Below, one piece after another: positions 4,233-38,781 of a stretch of DNA of 50,157 nucleotides; the first letter of the stretch is position 1, and the number at the start of each line of letters is the position of its first letter. Source of the DNA: Lentisphaerota bacterium (lineage in GTDB: Bacteria; Verrucomicrobiota; Kiritimatiellia; RFP12; JAAYNR01). The DNA lies in assembly GCA_016873675.1 (NCBI GenBank), contig VGWG01000010.1, forward strand, positions 1 to 50,157, given 5' to 3'. The translations under genes were made by a program, and so were the position numbers. The notes under the pieces were generated by a model. It was given only the letters and a program-made list of their open reading frames with translations. It made no database searches and had not been told where the DNA came from.

Positions 4233-6572
4233 CTACACAACCGGCAGTTCGGTTTTAGTGGCGGCCTGCAACTGTATCTCGCGCAGGGTGCCGTCGGGCA
4301 GCCGCACGCGATACGACCCCGAATGGTCGGCCGTCAGCGTGGCGGCGATCAGCCGCCTGTCCTGCCAGCGCAAATCGACCGTCACCCCCCCGCGGGCGCG
4401 CAGCCCGGTCACCGCCCCGCAGCTCCAGGCCGGCGGCAGGGCCGGGAGGAGGTCAATGAGCCCGTCATGGCTTTGCAGCAGGAGCTCCGCCATGCCGGCG
4501 GTCGCGCCGAAATTGCCGTCGATCTGGAACGGCGGATGGTCGTCGAACAGATTCGGGAGCGTCTTTTCCCGCAACAGTCCGAGGATATGGGTGTGGGCCG
4601 CCGCGCCATCGCCCAGACGGGCCAGGAAGTTGATGAGCCAAGCCTTGCTCCAGCCGGTGTGTCCGCCGCCATGCGCGAGGCGGCGGGTGACCGTGGCGCG
4701 AGCCGCGTCAAAAAGCGCCGGCGTCCGCCCGCGGGTAATCTGGGTCAGGGGATGGAGGCCGATGAGAGACGAAATGTGACGATGCCCCGGCTCGCATTCC
4801 TCGTAATCCTCGATCCATTCCTGCACAATGCCCAGACGCGGGCTGACCTTGACGGGTGCCAGATTCGCCTTGACGGTGCGCAACCGAGCCGCAAAGGCGG
4901 GCTCGTCGAGGTCCAGCAGCGCCAGGACCTCCAGACAATCATCGATCAGTTGCGCGATCAGCGCGAGATCCATCGTCGCGCCATAGGTGAACATGCTGTG
5001 CGAACCATCGGCCGCGACAAAGGTGTTTTCGGGTGAGTGGCTGGGGCTGGTCACCAGTTTCCCGGCGCAAGGCGTGCCCGCTGGCGCTTCAACCAGGAAG
5101 TCGCAGGCAAAGGTCACGGCGCCCCGCATCAGCGGCCACAGCCGGTCGGCCAGCAATTTCCGGTCGCCGCTGAAGCGGTAATGCTCGAGGCAATGCGTGG
5201 CGAGCCAGATTGAGCCCATGGGCCAGATGCCGCACGCGCCGTCCATAGGCTCGACGCAGCCATGGACATCGCACACGTGGTGAGCCACCCAGCCGTCGCA
5301 CCCGTAGAGCTTGCGGGCCGCTTCGTGGCCTGCGGGCGCAATCAGGCTCATCCAGTAGAACAACGGCTCCTGGCACTCGATCAGATTTGTCGGGCCCGTG
5401 AGCCAGTAGTTCATCTGCATGTTGATGTTGGTGTGATAGTCGCTGTCCCACGACGGTGACATCTGGTGCGCCCAGACCCCCTGCAGGTTGGCAGGCAGCG
5501 AGCCGGGACGGCTGGCACTCATGATCAGATAGCGTCCGTAGTGGAAATAGAGCGCCTCCAGGCCGGGATCCTCCTCTCCCTTCTTCACGCGCGCCAGGCG
5601 CTCGTCGGTCGGCAAGGCATCGCCGGGCGAGGCGGGCAGTTCCAAGCGGACCCGGTCAAAGAGTTGGCGGTGCGCGGCGATATGGTCGGCGCGAAGCTGT
5701 TCCCAGCTCTTACCAGAGGCAGCCGTCATCACCGCGCGGCAGCGGCCGACGGCATCGGCAGACAGATCGCCGGGCGCCACGTACGACGTTGCGACCGCCA
5801 GACGCAGTTCCACGGCATCGGCGCCGCGCACGCGCAAGCAGTCTTCATCGGCGATCAGCCTGCCGCCGGTCACACGGGCCTGCAGGAGCAGGGCAAAGCG
5901 CATGCCGCCGCGGGTCAGGCGTCCGGTCAGCAGGAGGTGCCCGTCCGGTGTGGCCACACGCGACTGCACATCCTGCTCGCGCTGCAGATTGATATCCACG
6001 TCTCCGCGGCCGGGATCAAACGCGATCCGGGTGCAGATCAGTTGATCCGGAGCCGAACAGAAATGCTCCCGCTGCTGGCGAACGCCGCGATAGCGTAACG
6101 TCGTGGTGGCCATGCCGGTGGACAGGTCCAGCGCGCGCTCATAGTCGTAGGTGGCATAGGCGGTCTGCCACCAGGCGCCTCCGGGAGCGGGATTGAAGAA
6201 GTTTGACTCGTGACTGGGCCGGGCGCCGCCACCGACCCAGTCAATCACCAGTTCGCCGGCACTCTGGTAGGGGTCGATGTTACGTTCGGGCGAAAGCAAG
6301 GATTTCTCAGCCAGATCATAGGCCTCTTGATTGCGGCCCGAGAAAAGGAGCGCGCGAATCTGCGGCAGCGCCTGCCCGGCCAGCGGGTTGCTGCGGTCGA
6401 TGCGGGTGCCCTCCCAGAGCGACTCCTCGTTAATCTGAATCCGTTCGCGCGCCACGCGGCCAAAAACCATGGCGCCGAGACGGCCATTGCCCAGCGGCAG
6501 CGCGTGATGCCAATTCCAAGCATGCACGCGATACCACAGGCGGACCGGGGATGAGTGGGTGGATGTTTGCAT
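4233..6572 (-). CDS. GH95 family alpha-L-fucosidase
   Basis: A 779-residue protein of glycoside hydrolase family 95, inverting enzymes that release alpha-1,2-linked fucose (some act on galactose). The family opening is clear (ALPLGNGRLGAMVFG, residues 24-38, then INEESLWEG). The catalytic part has NLQGVW (362-367), TNINMQMNYW with Asn382 and Asn384, SHSPENTF with Glu515 as probable general acid, and FQIDGNFG with Asp685; these match the Asn/Asn/Glu/Asp set known in Bifidobacterium AfcA. Full length for the core family. No signal peptide is seen at this start, so it is probably cytoplasmic, unlike many homologues. It stands alone on the minus strand, divergent from the ThyX-like gene, with no transporter or other glycosidase nearby. 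The ribosome site is weak. Confidence 0.93.
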   Translation of the reverse strand: MQTSTHSSPVRLWYRVHAWNWHHALPLGNGRLGAMVFGRVARERIQINEESLWEGTRIDRSNPLAGQALPQIRALLFSGRNQEAYDLAEKSLLSPERNIDPYQSAGELVIDWVGGGARPSHESNFFNPAPGGAWWQTAYATYDYERALDLSTGMATTTLRYRGVRQQREHFCSAPDQLICTRIAFDPGRGDVDINLQREQDVQSRVATPDGHLLLTGRLTRGGMRFALLLQARVTGGRLIADEDCLRVRGADAVELRLAVATSYVAPGDLSADAVGRCRAVMTAASGKSWEQLRADHIAAHRQLFDRVRLELPASPGDALPTDERLARVKKGEEDPGLEALYFHYGRYLIMSASRPGSLPANLQGVWAHQMSPSWDSDYHTNINMQMNYWLTGPTNLIECQEPLFYWMSLIAPAGHEAARKLYGCDGWVAHHVCDVHGCVEPMDGACGIWPMGSIWLATHCLEHYRFSGDRKLLADRLWPLMRGAVTFACDFLVEAPAGTPCAGKLVTSPSHSPENTFVAADGSHSMFTYGATMDLALIAQLIDDCLEVLALLDLDEPAFAARLRTVKANLAPVKVSPRLGIVQEWIEDYEECEPGHRHISSLIGLHPLTQITRGRTPALFDAARATVTRRLAHGGGHTGWSKAWLINFLARLGDGAAAHTHILGLLREKTLPNLFDDHPPFQIDGNFGATAGMAELLLQSHDGLIDLLPALPPAWSCGAVTGLRARGGVTVDLRWQDRRLIAATLTADHSGSYRVRLPDGTLREIQLQAATKTELPVV

Positions 6573-6742
6573 AGTTATTCAGTCGAAAGTGAAAAAAGGC
6601 TATGTTACCCGCATTCGGGCCAGGATGCAAAGAGATTCCACGCAGAATACCCTTGTGCGATGTGCCGCTGTGTAGTACTGTCTGGAATGCATTCGACGCG
6701 GGTTTGGAACGCGCGTCTCGTCTCGATAGAGGGTGTCTGGGG

Positions 6743-7324
6743 ATGGCGGAACAACCGGTCAGGGTCAGCTCGTTCAAAGCCCGTTTTAGCTGGCGGGATG
6801 TGGCAGACGCGGCGCGCACAACGGTGCGGAAGGAAGAAGGCGTGAAGGAGCCCGGTCGTGACTGGAAACGACGGGTGCTCCTCGCCGAGCATTCGCCCAT
6901 CCGGCAGATCATGTTCAAGTGGAAATGGGTCAATCTGCCCTATTGGGTCAGCGTCCACTTCGTCCGCCACAAGATCGGCATCGAACATTTCGTCAGCACA
7001 CAGCGGACCGATCGGACCGGCCTCAATCGCGAGGCGATCCCCCAATCGGCCTGCGTGATGCATGAATGCCTCGCCAACGCCCAGGCGCTCATCTTTATTT
7101 CACGCAAACGGCTCTGCCGTCAGGCCTCGCCGGAAACGACCGCCGCCTGGCAACGGGTGCTCGACGAGGTGCGGCCAATCGAACCCGAGCTCCACGGAGT
7201 CTGCGTTCCCGAGTGCGTCTATCGCGGATTCTGCCCCGAGTTTAAAAGTTGCGGGTACGCCGACACGCCCGCCTTCCGGCAGGCGCTCACCGCCTATCGG
7301 GGAGCCAGCCCCGACCCCGGATAG
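6743..7324 (+). CDS. ThyX-like protein with divergent signature and C-terminal cysteines
   Basis: A 193-residue protein. ATG 6743 is preceded by GAGGG at 6729-6733; the longer frame adds 47 unlikely residues. Residues 75-91 read RHKIGIEHFVSTQRTDR, which lines up with the FAD-dependent thymidylate synthase motif RHRxxSxNxxSxR: the leading Arg-His and the closing S-x-x-R survive, but the central Ser and Asn do not. The C-terminus has Cys154, Cys158, Cys164 and Cys170 (spacing C-x3-C-x5-C-x5-C), which could bind metal. From memory, phage-type ThyX relatives carry a similar cysteine-rich end, but I could not check this. Whether it makes dTMP is open. It stands alone between minus-strand neighbours. 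Confidence 0.7.
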   Translation: MAEQPVRVSSFKARFSWRDVADAARTTVRKEEGVKEPGRDWKRRVLLAEHSPIRQIMFKWKWVNLPYWVSVHFVRHKIGIEHFVSTQRTDRTGLNREAIPQSACVMHECLANAQALIFISRKRLCRQASPETTAAWQRVLDEVRPIEPELHGVCVPECVYRGFCPEFKSCGYADTPAFRQALTAYRGASPDPG

Positions 7325-7368
7325 CGGAAGGCTCGCTCCTCGGCCGGGCGCGGATGCCCGTCTGCGGG

Positions 7369-8847
7369 TTACTGGGTGAGGGGTTCGAGCACCGGGTCTG
7401 CGAAGGTGACCGTGCCTGCGATCTCGCCTTCGATGGCCAGGCGGATGAATCGCGTTGGCGGACGCAGGCTGTTCTCCAGTTTTCGATCCATCGCGGTCCA
7501 GCCATCCCGATCCCGCTTGATTTTCGGCGGATCCTGGATCTCCCGCACCACTAGGGGGTGGTCACCGGAGCCGGATTCCCCGAGTTGTTCAATGACGAAT
7601 ACCGCATGACCCGCGAAGTCTGAGGCCTTGAGAAAGCGGACTTTGATCTGGAGGGTTTTCGCGTCAGCGCGGGCGATCCGAACCGGCGGCGATTCAATGC
7701 GGAAACGGGCCGGGCCATTGGTGACTGTGACGGCGATGCCGTCCCGCATCGCGGCGAGGGTGGTCGCCCGCGGATTGTCGAGCCGGACACGCCATCCCGA
7801 GAGCGAGGCGCCATCCGTTGAGACGGGAAGCGCCGGCAGGAGGTTTTTGGGTGAGGTTGGCGCGACCGCCGACAGCTCGCTGGCGGGCAGGATGAGGGGG
7901 CCGTCGGCGGCGGCTGGTGGGCGCATCCGGGCGATTCCGAGTCCGGCCGCCCCCGCGAGGAAACCCGTGACAGCCGCCACGAGGGCGATGCGCTTCCAGC
8001 GGCGCGCGACCCGGCTGAGACGGGTGAGTTCGCTGACTGGCGTGACGCCATGGGCGAGTTGGTCGGGGGTACTTGCCGGGGAGAAAGAGACCGCCTCGCG
8101 GATGGCGGAGAGGTGCCTGCGGGGGTCGCGCTCGAGGAACGGGGTGTCGGTTTCGGCAAACCCGGCGGCGAGCAGGGCTGCGCGGTAGGCGTCGAGGTCG
8201 AACGGTACGGTGCGCCAGACGACCGAGCCGGCATCGTCATCCAAAATACAATACGAGGCGAGCGCCTCGTCCGCGCGGGGATTGCCGGCGGAGCCGGGGT
8301 TGACGAGGTAGCGTTTGCCGGGTTCGATCACGAAATCCTGCGGGGGCAGGTGGTGAGTGGCCCCGCTGGCGCCGATGACGAAGAGGGCGGGCAGGTGGGT
8401 GTGCCCGGTGAAGAGGATCGGCTCGGTCGCGGCGGGCCAGGAGCGGGCCGCGTCCGCGTGATCCTCGATGTAGTTAAAGGCGGCGGGCTCGGTGAAATCG
8501 CCGTGGACGCAGCGGAACCCGGGGCCGGCGAGCGTGAGGGGCTGGGCCGCGAGGAAACGCGCGGCCTTGTCGGACAGGCGGGTGCGGGTCCAGTCGAGCA
8601 GGCGCCGGGCGCGCTCGTTAAAAAGGGCGGGGTCGAGCTTGCCGCAGACCGCCGCGTCGTGGTTGCCCATGCAGAAGGCATCGACGTGGCGATAGACCGA
8701 TTCCAGCACTTCGGAGGGGTTGGGGCCGTAGCCGACGCTGTCCCCGAGACACAGGATGCGCCCGACACGTTGCGCGGCGATATCGGTCAGCACGGCGTTC
8801 CAGGCTTGCAGGTTGGCGTGGATGTCAGAGACGATGGCGTAGCGCAC
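7369..8847 (-). CDS. Calcineurin-like metallophosphoesterase with membrane anchor and C-terminal beta domain
   Basis: A 492-residue protein starting at GTG 8847, chosen because the family begins right at the beta strand RYAIVSDIHA and AAAGG precedes it. All five metallophosphoesterase motifs are present: SDIH (residues 7-10), LGDSVGYGPNP, GNHD, VHGD and GHTH, so the dimetal site looks complete. The N-terminal part resembles the YfcE/MJ0936 phosphodiesterase group. A single hydrophobic segment lies at about 283-305, preceded by RVARRWKR, which predicts a cytoplasmic catalytic part and an extracytoplasmic C-terminus. The last 185 residues look like a beta-sandwich (many strands, SGWRVRLDNP start) of unknown family. 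The fusion across the membrane is unusual. Substrate unknown. Confidence 0.85.
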   Translation of the reverse strand: MRYAIVSDIHANLQAWNAVLTDIAAQRVGRILCLGDSVGYGPNPSEVLESVYRHVDAFCMGNHDAAVCGKLDPALFNERARRLLDWTRTRLSDKAARFLAAQPLTLAGPGFRCVHGDFTEPAAFNYIEDHADAARSWPAATEPILFTGHTHLPALFVIGASGATHHLPPQDFVIEPGKRYLVNPGSAGNPRADEALASYCILDDDAGSVVWRTVPFDLDAYRAALLAAGFAETDTPFLERDPRRHLSAIREAVSFSPASTPDQLAHGVTPVSELTRLSRVARRWKRIALVAAVTGFLAGAAGLGIARMRPPAAADGPLILPASELSAVAPTSPKNLLPALPVSTDGASLSGWRVRLDNPRATTLAAMRDGIAVTVTNGPARFRIESPPVRIARADAKTLQIKVRFLKASDFAGHAVFVIEQLGESGSGDHPLVVREIQDPPKIKRDRDGWTAMDRKLENSLRPPTRFIRLAIEGEIAGTVTFADPVLEPLTQ

Positions 8848-33942: not shown

Positions 33943-36084
33943 ATGACCTCAACACCCTGCCGCTGGCCGTCCGAGCTGGCGCAAGAGATCGAACAGCACG
34001 CCCTCGACGTGGGCCGTTTCCTCAGGGGCGAACTGTCCGCTTCGCTCCTGAAATCCCGGCGCGTTCCGCGCGGTATCTATGAACAACGGCAAAACGGCGC
34101 CTACATGGTCCGTGTGCGCGTGCCGGGCGGTACGCTCGGCGCCGCCCAGGCGCGGGCGCTGGCTGGCGTAGCCTCACGATACGGCAGCGGCACGCTTTAC
34201 GTGACGACGCGCCAGGACATCCAGATTCATGACGTGGCGATCGGGCAGACGCCGGACCTCATGCGGGAACTGTTCCGGGCCGGACTCACATCGAAGGGCG
34301 GCGGCGGCAATTCGGTGCGGAATATCACCGCCTGCCCCTATGCCGGCATCTGCCCCGCAGAACAATTCGATGTAACCCCCTGCGTCGAAGCGGTTACCGA
34401 GTACCTGATCGGCCTGCCCGGCAGTTACAACCTGCCCCGGAAATACAAGATCGCGTTCAGCGGTTGCAGCGCCGATTGCGCCTTGGCCCAGGTCCATGAC
34501 CTCGGCTTCATCGCGCATAGTCGCGATGGACAACCGGGCTTTAGCGTCTATGCCGGCGGCGGAATGGGCACGGACTCGCGCGTGGCGGATCGTATCGAGG
34601 ACTGGGTGCCAGCAGGCGAAGTCATCCGCATGGCCGAGGCGGTGCGGAGGCTGTTCGACCGCCTGGGCGATCGCCGCAACCGGCGGCGGGCCCGCCTCCG
34701 CTTCGCCGTTGAACGGGTCGGGGCCGATGCGTTCCGCAGACTGGTGCGCGAAGCCGTACAGGTCGCAACTGCCGATGGCGCCCCGACGTGTGAACGTCCG
34801 CTCCACTGCAGCGGATCACCCGTCGAACCGGCGGGGGATTACCGCGCCCTGCTCACGCAAACCGGGGACTGCGACGTGCTGCCGCAGCGCCAACCGGGAT
34901 ACGTGGCCGTGCCGTTATACCTGCCGTTGGGAAAAATTGCATGGCGGGCGCTGGCGGCGCTGGCCGATCTCGCGGAACGGTTCAGTTCCGAGAAGATGCT
35001 GCGCGCCACTCAAGACCAGAACCTGCTCCTGCCTTTCGTGCGTGAGCCGGATATCGGACCCCTGCGTGAAGCGCTTCAAGGCGTTCTGGGCCCCGAGGCC
35101 ACCCGTCCTGGCGCCAAGCGGGCCTTCACAACCTGCACGGGCGCGGCGACATGCCGCCTGGGACTGTGCCTGTCGCAGCCTGCCGCCGTCGCCTGTGCCC
35201 AGGCGCTCGATGGCGCAGGCCTGGCCCCGTCCACGATACGGGCTGTCGACATCCGGATGAATGGCTGCCCCAATGCCTGCGGGCAGCATCCCATCGGAAC
35301 CATCGGCCTTTTTGGAGCCGCGCAACGGATTGGCGAACGCCTGATCCCCGCTTACCGGGTGCTGGTGGGCGCCAGGCGGGGTGAGGGAAGGACCCGACTG
35401 GGCACACTCGCGGGGGCTGTTCCCGCGCGCGCGCTTCCAGCCTTTCTCGCAGATGTGCTGCGCGATTATGAGGCCGATCATGCGTCCAACGAATCGTTTG
35501 CGGATGCCTTTGATCGCAAGGGAATGCGCCATTTTCAAACCATTCTGGAACGGCACACCCACGTGCCGACGGATACCGACGACCCGACGTTCTACCGCGA
35601 TTGGGGACGAGACGAGGATTTTTCTCTGGCCGGACGCGGCGCGGGAGAATGCGGCTCGGGCGTCTTCGAAATCATCTCGGAAGATCTGTCGGCAGCCGCC
35701 CGCGCGCTGGATCAGGCAGAGACGGACGCGGAGCCCGGCGCGGCGCTTTTCCGCGGCCTGCTGGCGACCGTGCGCGCGTTGCTGATCACCCGCGGGATCG
35801 ACTCTCAGGATCCGGATGTTATCCTCCGCTCGTTCGAGACGCACTTCGTGGAGACCGGCCTGGTGGATGTCGGTTTCCGCAACCTGCTGGCGCGCGCGCG
35901 CGGGTACCTGGAGGGCGGGCGAAATGCCGTGGCCGGTTGCCGGGAAGAAATCCGTCGCCTGCTCGATCGGATCCAAAAGCTGTACGCCACCCTGGACGCA
36001 GACCTCCGCTTTCACGAGCCTGAGGCCGCGCAGGCCGCTACCCCGCCGGCCGCGCGATCAAACGGGGCATTGAACGCCGGGTGA
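33943..36084 (+). CDS. Siroheme [4Fe-4S] sulfite/nitrite reductase with helical C-terminal extension
   Basis: A 713-residue assimilatory-type reductase that takes six electrons, probably from ferredoxin, to make sulfide from sulfite or ammonia from nitrite. The N-terminal repeat has the siroheme-binding style VTTRQDIQIHDV (87-98) and RNITACPYAGICP (126-138). The 4Fe-4S/siroheme cysteines are Cys398 and Cys404 (TCTGAATCRLG) and Cys442 and Cys446 (GCPNACG), the classic C-x5-C...C-x3-C. The catalytic part ends near 510. About 180 extra residues follow, mostly helical (HEPN-like in look), absent from ordinary enzymes of about 500-550 residues. The sequence does not settle sulfite versus nitrite. 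The siroheme-synthesis gene is 30 bp downstream, so they form an operon. Confidence 0.92.
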   Translation: MTSTPCRWPSELAQEIEQHALDVGRFLRGELSASLLKSRRVPRGIYEQRQNGAYMVRVRVPGGTLGAAQARALAGVASRYGSGTLYVTTRQDIQIHDVAIGQTPDLMRELFRAGLTSKGGGGNSVRNITACPYAGICPAEQFDVTPCVEAVTEYLIGLPGSYNLPRKYKIAFSGCSADCALAQVHDLGFIAHSRDGQPGFSVYAGGGMGTDSRVADRIEDWVPAGEVIRMAEAVRRLFDRLGDRRNRRRARLRFAVERVGADAFRRLVREAVQVATADGAPTCERPLHCSGSPVEPAGDYRALLTQTGDCDVLPQRQPGYVAVPLYLPLGKIAWRALAALADLAERFSSEKMLRATQDQNLLLPFVREPDIGPLREALQGVLGPEATRPGAKRAFTTCTGAATCRLGLCLSQPAAVACAQALDGAGLAPSTIRAVDIRMNGCPNACGQHPIGTIGLFGAAQRIGERLIPAYRVLVGARRGEGRTRLGTLAGAVPARALPAFLADVLRDYEADHASNESFADAFDRKGMRHFQTILERHTHVPTDTDDPTFYRDWGRDEDFSLAGRGAGECGSGVFEIISEDLSAAARALDQAETDAEPGAALFRGLLATVRALLITRGIDSQDPDVILRSFETHFVETGLVDVGFRNLLARARGYLEGGRNAVAGCREEIRRLLDRIQKLYATLDADLRFHEPEAAQAATPPAARSNGALNAG

Positions 36085-36114
36085 TCCGAACAGTGAGAGG
36101 AAACGGAGCGTCAC

Positions 36115-38781
36115 ATGGCTATGACATCAGCACCAGGCCTTCCGATACTGCCGGTTGCGCTGCTTCTGGCGGGACGGCCCTGTCTGGTCGTGGGCGCCGG
36201 AAAGGTGGCGGCCCGCAAGGCCGGACACCTGATCGAAGCGGGCGCCCGGGTAACCGTGGTTGGCGAGCATGCCTCAGCGGCGGTCTGCGGCCTGCATGCA
36301 TCCGGCGCCATCCGGTTGGAAGAGCGCGCGTTTGCCGAACAAGACATGACGGGGTGCGCGCTGGTGTTCGCCGCCACAGACGATGCCGATGCCAACCTCC
36401 GCGTGCTGGAAGCCTGCCGCCGTCAGGGCATCCTGTGCGGGTGCGTCGATTTCCACTGGCGGGAGGGAGACTTGATCAGCCCGGCGGTGTTACGCACGGA
36501 CGACCTGACGGTGGCGGTTTCCACTGGCGGCCGATCCTGCCGGCGCGCACGCCTGGTTCGGGACCGCTTGGCGCGCCATCTTGCCGGCGTGGACACAGCC
36601 GATCTCCTGGTCATCGGGACGGGTATGACCAGCGTATCCACAACGTTCACCGTCGGCACCCGGACGAGTAACCTCGCTCGGGCCCAGACCCGTCAGGTCG
36701 TCGAGCGCCTTCGCGGGCTGCTGCCGGGCTGGACCTTTGACGTCCATCCGCGCTCTTCGCCCGGTGATCGGGATCGCGCGATGGATCTTCGCGAAAGCCC
36801 GGCGGACTTCTTCACGCGTGATCTGGACGAGGCCGTTCTCCGGGGCGATCTGGACTTCGCCGTTCACAGCGCCAAGGACATGCCGAATCCCATTACGCCG
36901 GGGCTGGACTGGTTCTGGCTGCCGTGGCGCGACGATCCGCGCGACTGCCTCGTGCTGCCGGCGGGAAGGTCGCACACCGCGATGCCGCTACGCCCGCGCC
37001 TGGGCGTAAGCAGCGAACGGCGAGAGGCCTACTGCCGGTGCCGCTTCCCCGACGCGCAGTTCCTGCCCATCCGCGGCAACATCGAGGACCGGCTGGCGCA
37101 ACTCGATGGAGGCCGGTTCGATGCCCTTGTCATGGCCGGCGCCGCCCTGAACCGCCTGGGCCTCGAAACCCGGATCTCCGAGTGGATCCCGCTGGAGGAA
37201 CTGCCCACGCCGCCCGGACAAGGCGCGCTCGGCCTCGCGTTCCGGGCTGGCGACGCGCGGCTGATTCGGCTGCGATCACTCTTTGTCCGGCCTGTCGCGT
37301 TTGTCGGTGCCGGCGTCGGATCTGCCGGGATGTGCACGGTTGATGGACTCGCGGAGTTGGAAGCGTGCGATGTCTGCATCCACGATGCGCTGATCGACCC
37401 CGCTCTGCTCGCCGGGCTTCGGGTGCATGCGCAATGCATCGATGCGGGCAAGCGCGCCGGGGACCCTGCGCATGCGCAGGCCGAAACCACGGATCGGATC
37501 TTGGACTATGCCCGCCAAGGGCGTCGTGTGGTGCGGCTGAAAGGCGGGGACCCGGGAATCTTCGGCCGCCTGGCCGAAGAGACGGAGGCGCTCGAGGCCC
37601 TGGACCTGGCGTTCCGGGTTGTTCCCGGCGTCAGCAGTCTGAACGCGGCCACAACCGGCACCGGCATGCTGCTGACCCGCCGCGGCGTGTCGCAGGGATT
37701 CTGCGCGATCACCGCGAGGGCGGCGGGAGGCAAGCCGGCCGATGTGTCGGCCTCCGCGCGCAGCCGCCTCCCCGTCGTCTTCTTCATGGCGGGCCAAAGC
37801 ATCGCATCGGCCACGGCACAGCTTCTGAGCGATGGGTGGGCGGCCGCGACGCCTGCGGCCGTGATCCTGGCGGCGGGGACCGATGACGAAGCGGTGGTAT
37901 CGGGCACGCTCACCGATCTGACGTCCCGCATGGACGTGCTGGACGAGGATGCGTCCAACCACCCGGCTCTCCTGATCTGCGGCGACGCGGCCGGGTATCG
38001 GTTTCGAGGCGGTGGGGGCGCTTTGCGCGGACAGCGGGTCCTCCTCACGTTCAGCGAGGCGTTGCTCAAGCATGCCGCGCAACAGGTTCGGGATTGGGGA
38101 GGAGTCCCCGTGTCCAGGCCGATGGTCTGTCTCTCGCCCCGCCTGGACGAACGCGGCTGGTTGCGCGATCTGCGACAGTACGACTGGAGCGTGGTCACGT
38201 CGCCCTCGGCGGTGGACTGTCTGATGAAGACGTTACGCCAGACGATGACCGACCTGCGAAGCCTGCCGCGGCTGCTGGTTGCGGGCCCTGGAACGGCCGC
38301 GCGGTTCGAGGCTTACGGTATTCAGGCCGATGCGCAGCCGGCTGCGGACTTCGGCTGTGCGGGCGTGCTGGAATGGGTACGCCGCCATCTGACAACTGGC
38401 GAACGGGTGCTGCGCCTGCGGTCGGATCGGGCCGGCGCCGGCCTGGCGCATGCGCTGAGGGGATGCGGGCTGCGCGTGGATGACGTTGTCCTGTACCGGA
38501 ATGAGCCCATGGTCTACGCACGCAAGCCGCGATTTGACATGGCCGTCTTCGCCAGCGGAGCGGCGGTGGAATCGCTGCTCGCGCAGTGGGGGCGGGAGGC
38601 CTTGACGGGAAAGCGTGTGGCGGCCTTTCCGGGATCGGCGTGCGCGGCACTGGCGAAAGCCGGCATTCCGGTGGATGTTGTGGCTGCGGAACCGACCGTC
38701 GCGGCCTGCGTCGGCGATCTCGCCCTGCACGACGTGCGTCGGGCGATGGAGGAAGAGACGGAAACACCGCCTGGGCCGTGA
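36115..38781 (+). CDS. Four-part siroheme synthesis fusion: SirC, truncated HemC, CobA, HemD
   Basis: An 888-residue protein joining steps from porphobilinogen to siroheme. Residues 10-155: precorrin-2 dehydrogenase (VVGAGKVAARKAGHL, FAATDDADAN). Residues 178-388: hydroxymethylbilane synthase domains 1 and 2 (GTRTSNLARAQTRQV; HSAKDMP with the catalytic Asp255; IRGNIEDRL; TPPGQGALGLAFR). The third HemC domain, with the cysteine that holds the dipyrromethane cofactor, is absent. Residues 393-630: uroporphyrinogen-III methyltransferase (VGAGVGSAGMCTVDGL, RLKGGDPGIFGRL, VVPGVSSLNAA). Residues 638-870: uroporphyrinogen-III synthase. GGAG precedes ATG 36115. The ferrochelatase activity for the last step may reside in the SirC part, as in CysG; I cannot tell. 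Confidence 0.9.
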   Translation: MAMTSAPGLPILPVALLLAGRPCLVVGAGKVAARKAGHLIEAGARVTVVGEHASAAVCGLHASGAIRLEERAFAEQDMTGCALVFAATDDADANLRVLEACRRQGILCGCVDFHWREGDLISPAVLRTDDLTVAVSTGGRSCRRARLVRDRLARHLAGVDTADLLVIGTGMTSVSTTFTVGTRTSNLARAQTRQVVERLRGLLPGWTFDVHPRSSPGDRDRAMDLRESPADFFTRDLDEAVLRGDLDFAVHSAKDMPNPITPGLDWFWLPWRDDPRDCLVLPAGRSHTAMPLRPRLGVSSERREAYCRCRFPDAQFLPIRGNIEDRLAQLDGGRFDALVMAGAALNRLGLETRISEWIPLEELPTPPGQGALGLAFRAGDARLIRLRSLFVRPVAFVGAGVGSAGMCTVDGLAELEACDVCIHDALIDPALLAGLRVHAQCIDAGKRAGDPAHAQAETTDRILDYARQGRRVVRLKGGDPGIFGRLAEETEALEALDLAFRVVPGVSSLNAATTGTGMLLTRRGVSQGFCAITARAAGGKPADVSASARSRLPVVFFMAGQSIASATAQLLSDGWAAATPAAVILAAGTDDEAVVSGTLTDLTSRMDVLDEDASNHPALLICGDAAGYRFRGGGGALRGQRVLLTFSEALLKHAAQQVRDWGGVPVSRPMVCLSPRLDERGWLRDLRQYDWSVVTSPSAVDCLMKTLRQTMTDLRSLPRLLVAGPGTAARFEAYGIQADAQPAADFGCAGVLEWVRRHLTTGERVLRLRSDRAGAGLAHALRGCGLRVDDVVLYRNEPMVYARKPRFDMAVFASGAAVESLLAQWGREALTGKRVAAFPGSACAALAKAGIPVDVVAAEPTVAACVGDLALHDVRRAMEEETETPPGP

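Follow-up and report, generated by a model that had tools for sequence, protein, structure and literature searches.

A siroheme biosynthesis fusion protein whose hydroxymethylbilane synthase part lacks domain 3 and the cofactor-binding cysteine

The siroheme locus

The window, i.e., the whole stretch of 50,157 nucleotides analyzed here, harbors on its forward strand an open reading frame of 888 amino acids (36115..38781), which is uninterrupted by stop codons and encodes SirC, HemC, CobA and HemD in a row. This order had been read in a first-pass annotation of the sequence; the translation as well as a Pfam search agree with it, and the motif positions given there are right (HSAKDMP at residues 251–257, IRGNIEDRL, GQGALGLAFR and VGAGVGSAG).

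All parts of the fusion lie on the forward strand. The SirC part, a precorrin-2 dehydrogenase/ferrochelatase (residues 10–160; 36142..36594), is matched by NAD_binding_7 (PF13241, residues 15–124) and Sirohm_synth_M (PF14824, residues 130–155) and is 83% identical to that of locus L033. It is followed by the seven residues DLLVIGT (36601..36621), a relic of a HemA start identified by comparison with L033 and L057. HemC domains 1 and 2 (residues 171–390; 36625..37284) are matched by Porphobil_deam (PF01379, residues 179–383, 177 bits). Further downstream, the uroporphyrinogen-III C-methyltransferase CobA (37288..38004) is recognized by TP_methylase (PF00590, residues 394–602), its TIGR01469 score of 184.2 bits being just under the cut-off of 185, and the uroporphyrinogen-III synthase HemD (38035..38718) by HEM4 (PF02602, residues 654–866). 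The GPGD loop of CobA reads GVGS in the window (37288–37410).

The gene preceding the fusion (33943..36084, forward strand) encodes a NirA-family siroheme-dependent nitrite/sulfite reductase-like protein, which matches PRK09566/PRK09567 below their cut-offs. This gene order is identical in L033 and L047, and the reductase-like protein is likely the consumer of the siroheme.

HemC ends ahead of domain 3

In E. coli HemC, domain 1 is formed by residues 1–99 and 200–217, domain 2 by residues 105–193 and domain 3 by residues 222–313; the latter contacts the domain 1/2 hinge (residues 100–104) and carries Cys242 on a mobile turn (PMC3945110). The homology of the window protein to E. coli HemC ends at E. 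coli residue ~217, which is the hinge 218–221 ahead of domain 3. Here, R387 aligns with E. coli A217, CobA begins at about residue 392, and at this junction (37273..37305) about 95 amino acids including the cofactor cysteine are missing. The hemC model TIGR00212 is covered only from position 2 to 210 of 293, and the Pfam search found no match to PF03900, the HemC domain 3, in the 888 amino acids. The earlier observation, a HemC without domain 3 and without its cofactor cysteine, is thus borne out by Pfam, TIGR00212 and the E. coli alignment.

A cysteine-bearing domain 3 elsewhere in the protein would have spoken against this observation. Neither PF03900 nor a domain 3 profile built from 20 full-length HemCs including that of E. 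coli revealed one. This profile matches every full-length HemC, in whose domain 3 the invariant dipyrromethane-type cysteine is present, but none of the HemC open reading frames lacking domain 3, and it found nothing convincing among the flanking open reading frames of ~0.9 Mb of DNA.

An assembly or gene-calling artefact of the window was considered as well, since its genome (3.17 Mb, 95.6% complete) is a draft of 218 contigs. Nevertheless, the identical HemC cut is found in ~90 distinct homologues, including those of the single-contig genomes G062, G081, G146, G367 and G389, and the gap between HemC and the following domain spans 5–14 residues in nearly all members of the window's subfamily. 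The chance that such an artefact explains the missing domain 3 is therefore practically negligible. An assembly error or local deletion as the cause of the loss, which had been named as a possible refutation, is ruled out because the loss is clade-wide and the homologues share the truncation.

A sole HemC without domain 3

The first-pass annotation had offered three explanations for the missing domain, namely a HemC working in another way, a domain 3 supplied in trans or a separate HemC performing the step. The window genome contains one PF01379 and zero PF03900 matches above cut-off, and a search for a second HemC or a domain 3 across this genome yielded none, the best domain 3 match having an E-value of 0.35. 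A separate HemC finds no support in this single PF01379.

Within the class, PF01379 is present in 165 of 288 genomes. PF03900 is found at E≤0.01 in nine of the 288, six of these matches lying inside HemC open reading frames, and it is missing from ~159 class genomes that have HemC. The weak PF03900 matches in G062, G207 and G270 (17.9–19.4 bits) are at chance level and were rejected. PF03900 was likewise absent throughout (0/20) from 20 additional phylum genomes whose HemC lacks domain 3, while both full-length controls were positive (2/2). Since single-contig genomes belong to this set, assembly gaps do not explain the absence of domain 3. The HemC without domain 3 is the sole HemC of a clade of Kiritimatiellota/Lentisphaerota-type bacteria, and the class survey together with the ~90 homologues reveals that the truncation is conserved.

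A very diverged domain of 90 amino acids can escape sequence searches, and the match at E 0.35 in the window genome might be read in this way. Still, it appears highly improbable that an unrecognised protein contributes a diverged domain 3 in trans, as PF03900 is missing from the ~159 class genomes as well as from all 20 additional ones and the domain 3 profile detected nothing convincing in the ~0.9 Mb. Of the three explanations only a HemC working in another way is left.

Phylogeny and history of the cassette

A maximum-likelihood tree of HemC domains 1–2 (74 rows) places all HemCs without domain 3 on one branch (100/99) and the full-length HemCs, including that of E. coli, on the other. If the root falls on the full-length side, one loss of domain 3 is enough. 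The former branch splits into the window's subfamily (100/99) and a second subfamily (99/95). Members of the window's subfamily are also present in MAGs of Spirochaeta (L068) and Planctomycetota (L054). Two HemC-HemD fusions without CobA (L016 and L022) lie in the middle of the clade. Three full-type HemCs of the class (L086, L087 and L088) have a shortened domain 3 with the cysteine kept, which is an independent, partial reduction of this domain; in L086 and L088 this HemC is joined directly to CobA.

At L033 and L057, SirC and HemA form one chain, which is followed by HemC-CobA-HemD. In the window, hemA is deleted except for DLLVIGT, and SirC is joined in frame to HemC (36601–36640), whose start overlaps the former 3′ end of hemA. 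It is this deletion that joins SirC to HemC, and the SirC-HemC fusion is therefore later than the loss of domain 3.

Within the cassette (33943–38781), the reductase, SirC and HemC are 67–83% identical to L033 and L047. SirC and HemC of the window share only 50–53% identity with their counterparts in G242, a genome of the same genus, whereas the neighbouring secretin is 77% identical to G242. A cassette closer to another family than to its own genus suggests that reductase, SirC, HemC, CobA and HemD were likely acquired horizontally.

Catalytic core and predicted fold

All 77 rows of the window's subfamily are invariant at the positions of E. coli R11, S13, Q19, D46, F62, K83 and D84 as well as at the equivalents of S129, R131, R132, R149, R155 and R176. 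In the window these include the catalytic Asp255, Lys254 and Arg183/302/303/320/326/347 (within 36625..37284). Of eight cofactor-binding residues listed for human HMBS (hydroxymethylbilane synthase; PMC10773753), seven are kept according to a numbering transfer made in the present analysis (K98, D99, S147, R149, R150, R173 and R195), T145 being the exception. The mobile-loop residues K55 and K59 of E. coli HemC are not kept in the window's subfamily. Its hallmark is the motif DWFWLPW (residues 265–271; 36907..36927), which corresponds to E. coli residues 94–100 and adjoins the domain 1/2 hinge 100–104.

The AlphaFold model of window residues 170–395, calculated from an alignment without the E. 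coli row, has a pLDDT of 95.1. A Foldseek search returned PBG deaminases as all of the best PDB matches, among them 1pda with 214 columns, 35% identity and an rmsd of 2.5, so that the comparison with E. coli HemC proposed earlier reveals a predicted domain 1–2 fold that is alike. Furthermore, HemC-CobA-HemD is predicted as a single arrangement (pTM 0.89).

When measured against the HMBS family, the two-domain PBP-like core is present with Asp84, R11, R131, R132, R149, R155, R176 and K83, but domain 3 (PF03900) and the invariant dipyrromethane-binding cysteine are absent. As these are two defining features of HMBS, the protein is best called a variant without domain 3. It is homologous to HMBS and probably works like HMBS.

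Is the HemC part still an enzyme?

The HemC part very probably still condenses PBG. A different reading would be that it is no longer an HMBS and instead serves as a scaffold or a PBG/bilane carrier, or is decaying, with siroheme precursors being imported. This would fit to the observation that the canonical enzyme requires domain 3 (PMC8561815, PMC10773753); a human HMBS that stops short of domain 3 and also misses a portion of domain 1 is unstable and almost inactive (PMC10773753). It would also fit to the window genome, in which neither a GluTR domain (HemA, PF05201) nor a HemL over the cut-off was found, and to L047, where HemC lacks domain 2 and SirC, CobA and HemD are retained.

On the contrary, the catalytic residues are all invariant across a deep divergence, relatives possess a full HemA, and there is no alternative HemC. 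HemB, which is present in the window genome, co-occurs with HemC in a near-perfect manner (both in 78 genomes, HemB only in four, HemC only in two, neither in 32), and hemB often lies within a few kb of hemC. Between the window and L057 the identity is 83% for HemC, 73% for CobA and 69% for HemD, thus HemC does not decay at a higher rate than the parts fused to it. Taken together, a HemC part that is no longer an HMBS appears improbable.

In the window's lineage the pathway itself may be failing, since no HemA or HemL is recognisable in this genome and HemC of L047 has lost domain 2. In the latter locus (Lentisphaerae GWF2_57_35, 5989–8845) HemA carries an internal deletion while SirC, CobA and HemD are intact, and in this relative the synthesis of siroheme precursors seems to be degenerating.

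Cysteines as possible anchors

In canonical HMBS the chain grows on a dipyrromethane that is thioether-linked to the domain 3 cysteine, and this cysteine shifts by about 4 Å, thereby moving the chain beyond the catalytic Asp (PMC8561815, PMC7907807). The cofactor itself is quickly made by apo-HMBS from preuroporphyrinogen (PMC3949521). With the domain and the primer-holding cysteine lost, the textbook mechanism of HemC cannot apply unchanged.

An active HemC might carry a covalent dipyrromethane on another residue of domains 1–2 or CobA, e.g., Cys307, Cys407 or, in the sister subfamily, a cysteine at the position of E. coli A172. The latter is found in 18 of 18 members of this second subfamily (L092–L109 and related loci) and in none of 25 full-length HemC rows; it has G173 and R176 as sequence neighbours and represents a candidate for a relocated cofactor anchor. 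In the window's subfamily, a cysteine occurs at position 306/307 in 55 of 77 rows, Cys307 being located on the helix after R302/R303. Among the 69 complete fusions the commonest cysteines are Cys407 (60/69), Cys421 (56/69) and Cys307 (44/69). Cys407 and Cys421 sit in the CobA loop region bearing GVGS, Cys407 being located 20 residues past R387, and E. coli Cys242 is placed similarly at 25 residues past the counterpart residue 217.

However, a search for an invariant cysteine in HemC, CobA and HemD of these 69 fusions found none, which argues against a single replacement anchor. L078 and L080 contain zero cysteines in HemC domains 1–2, L075 misses the cysteine at all five recurrent sites, and CobA is absent altogether in L016 and L022. 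A relocated covalent anchor is therefore rather unlikely. As a single anchor for the window's subfamily, any cysteine of HemC, CobA or HemD is ruled out by the lack of invariance and by L075. The same holds for Cys309, which the first-pass annotation had pointed to: it is present in the window protein but not conserved, the recurrent cysteine being the adjacent Cys307. Hence, from this annotation the observation of a missing domain and cysteine stood, while Cys309, the in-trans domain and the separate HemC found no support.

A proposed mechanism without a covalent cofactor

Our preferred reading, to which we assign a probability of about 0.5, is that HemC consisting of domains 1–2 is active and holds the primer or chain non-covalently in its cleft, the role of domain 3 being taken over partly by the Trp-rich hinge and CobA. 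Here, four PBG would be condensed at the Asp255 site, while the primer, either dipyrromethane or the nascent bilane, would be held by ion pairs in the arginine-lined cleft instead of a thioether. The Trp-rich DWFWLPW hinge motif and the attached CobA would partly fill the space and replace the contacts of domain 3. The HMB product could then be handed to HemD on the same chain, and a single chain would lead from PBG via HMB, uroporphyrinogen III and precorrin-2 to siroheme. We infer the non-covalent holding from the lack of a conserved cysteine, and the residues involved could differ from member to member.

If synthesis started from PBG without a primer, aminomethylbilane would form first, and its deamination to HMB could take place at the Asp site. 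That the entire clade makes hydroxymethylbilane without covalent dipyrromethane, its PBG polymerase being freely primed or needing no cofactor, has in our estimate slightly less than an even chance.

The biochemically studied HMBSs found in the literature all anchor the growing chain via dipyrromethane on the domain 3 cysteine, and according to the accepted view the movement of this cysteine creates room for each added ring. If true, a cofactor-free clade would contradict the universality of the thioether-anchored dipyrromethane in HMBS. With a conserved sole HemC without domain 3, the need for the covalent cofactor becomes testable on one protein.

Relation to known systems

Canonical HemC/PBG deaminase (E. 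coli 1pda, human HMBS) shares domains 1–2, Asp84 and the carboxylate-binding arginines with the window HemC at ~35% identity to E. coli. It differs in its domain 3 with the dipyrromethane cysteine (Cys242/Cys261), in mobile-loop K55/K59 and in the domain 1/2 hinge, which in the window carries DWFWLPW. In the open-access literature no description of a natural HMBS lacking domain 3 was found.

The NCBIfam HMBS model NF002202/PRK01066, which we take to be chlamydial HemC, is 241 positions long and likewise has no room for domain 3. HemCs without domain 3 align to its positions ~18–225. The window protein scores 151–154 bits, below the curated cut-off of 251, which is reached by none of 388 phylum genomes. 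Chlamydial HemC is a free-standing protein unfused to CobA-HemD. The model shows that short HemCs are already present in databases, apparently without comment. Annotation pipelines should not treat a HemC as a fragment only because PF03900 is missing.

Fusions such as CysG (SirC-CobA), HemC-HemD and CobA-HemD likewise unite consecutive siroheme steps on one chain. In comparison to the CysG type, the window fusion includes HemC and spans PBG to siroheme in the order SirC-HemC-CobA-HemD. Both SirC and CobA domains of CysG (PRK10637) are found on the one chain, and the score of 286.8 bits lies below the full-length cut-off of 400, HemC separating both parts. Such a compact PBG-to-siroheme chain might be of use in tetrapyrrole production. 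Most relatives of the window fusion have SirC(-HemA) on a separate chain, and in one MAG (L033 and L057) the HemA/HemC-CobA-HemD operon is present twice, the copies having diverged.
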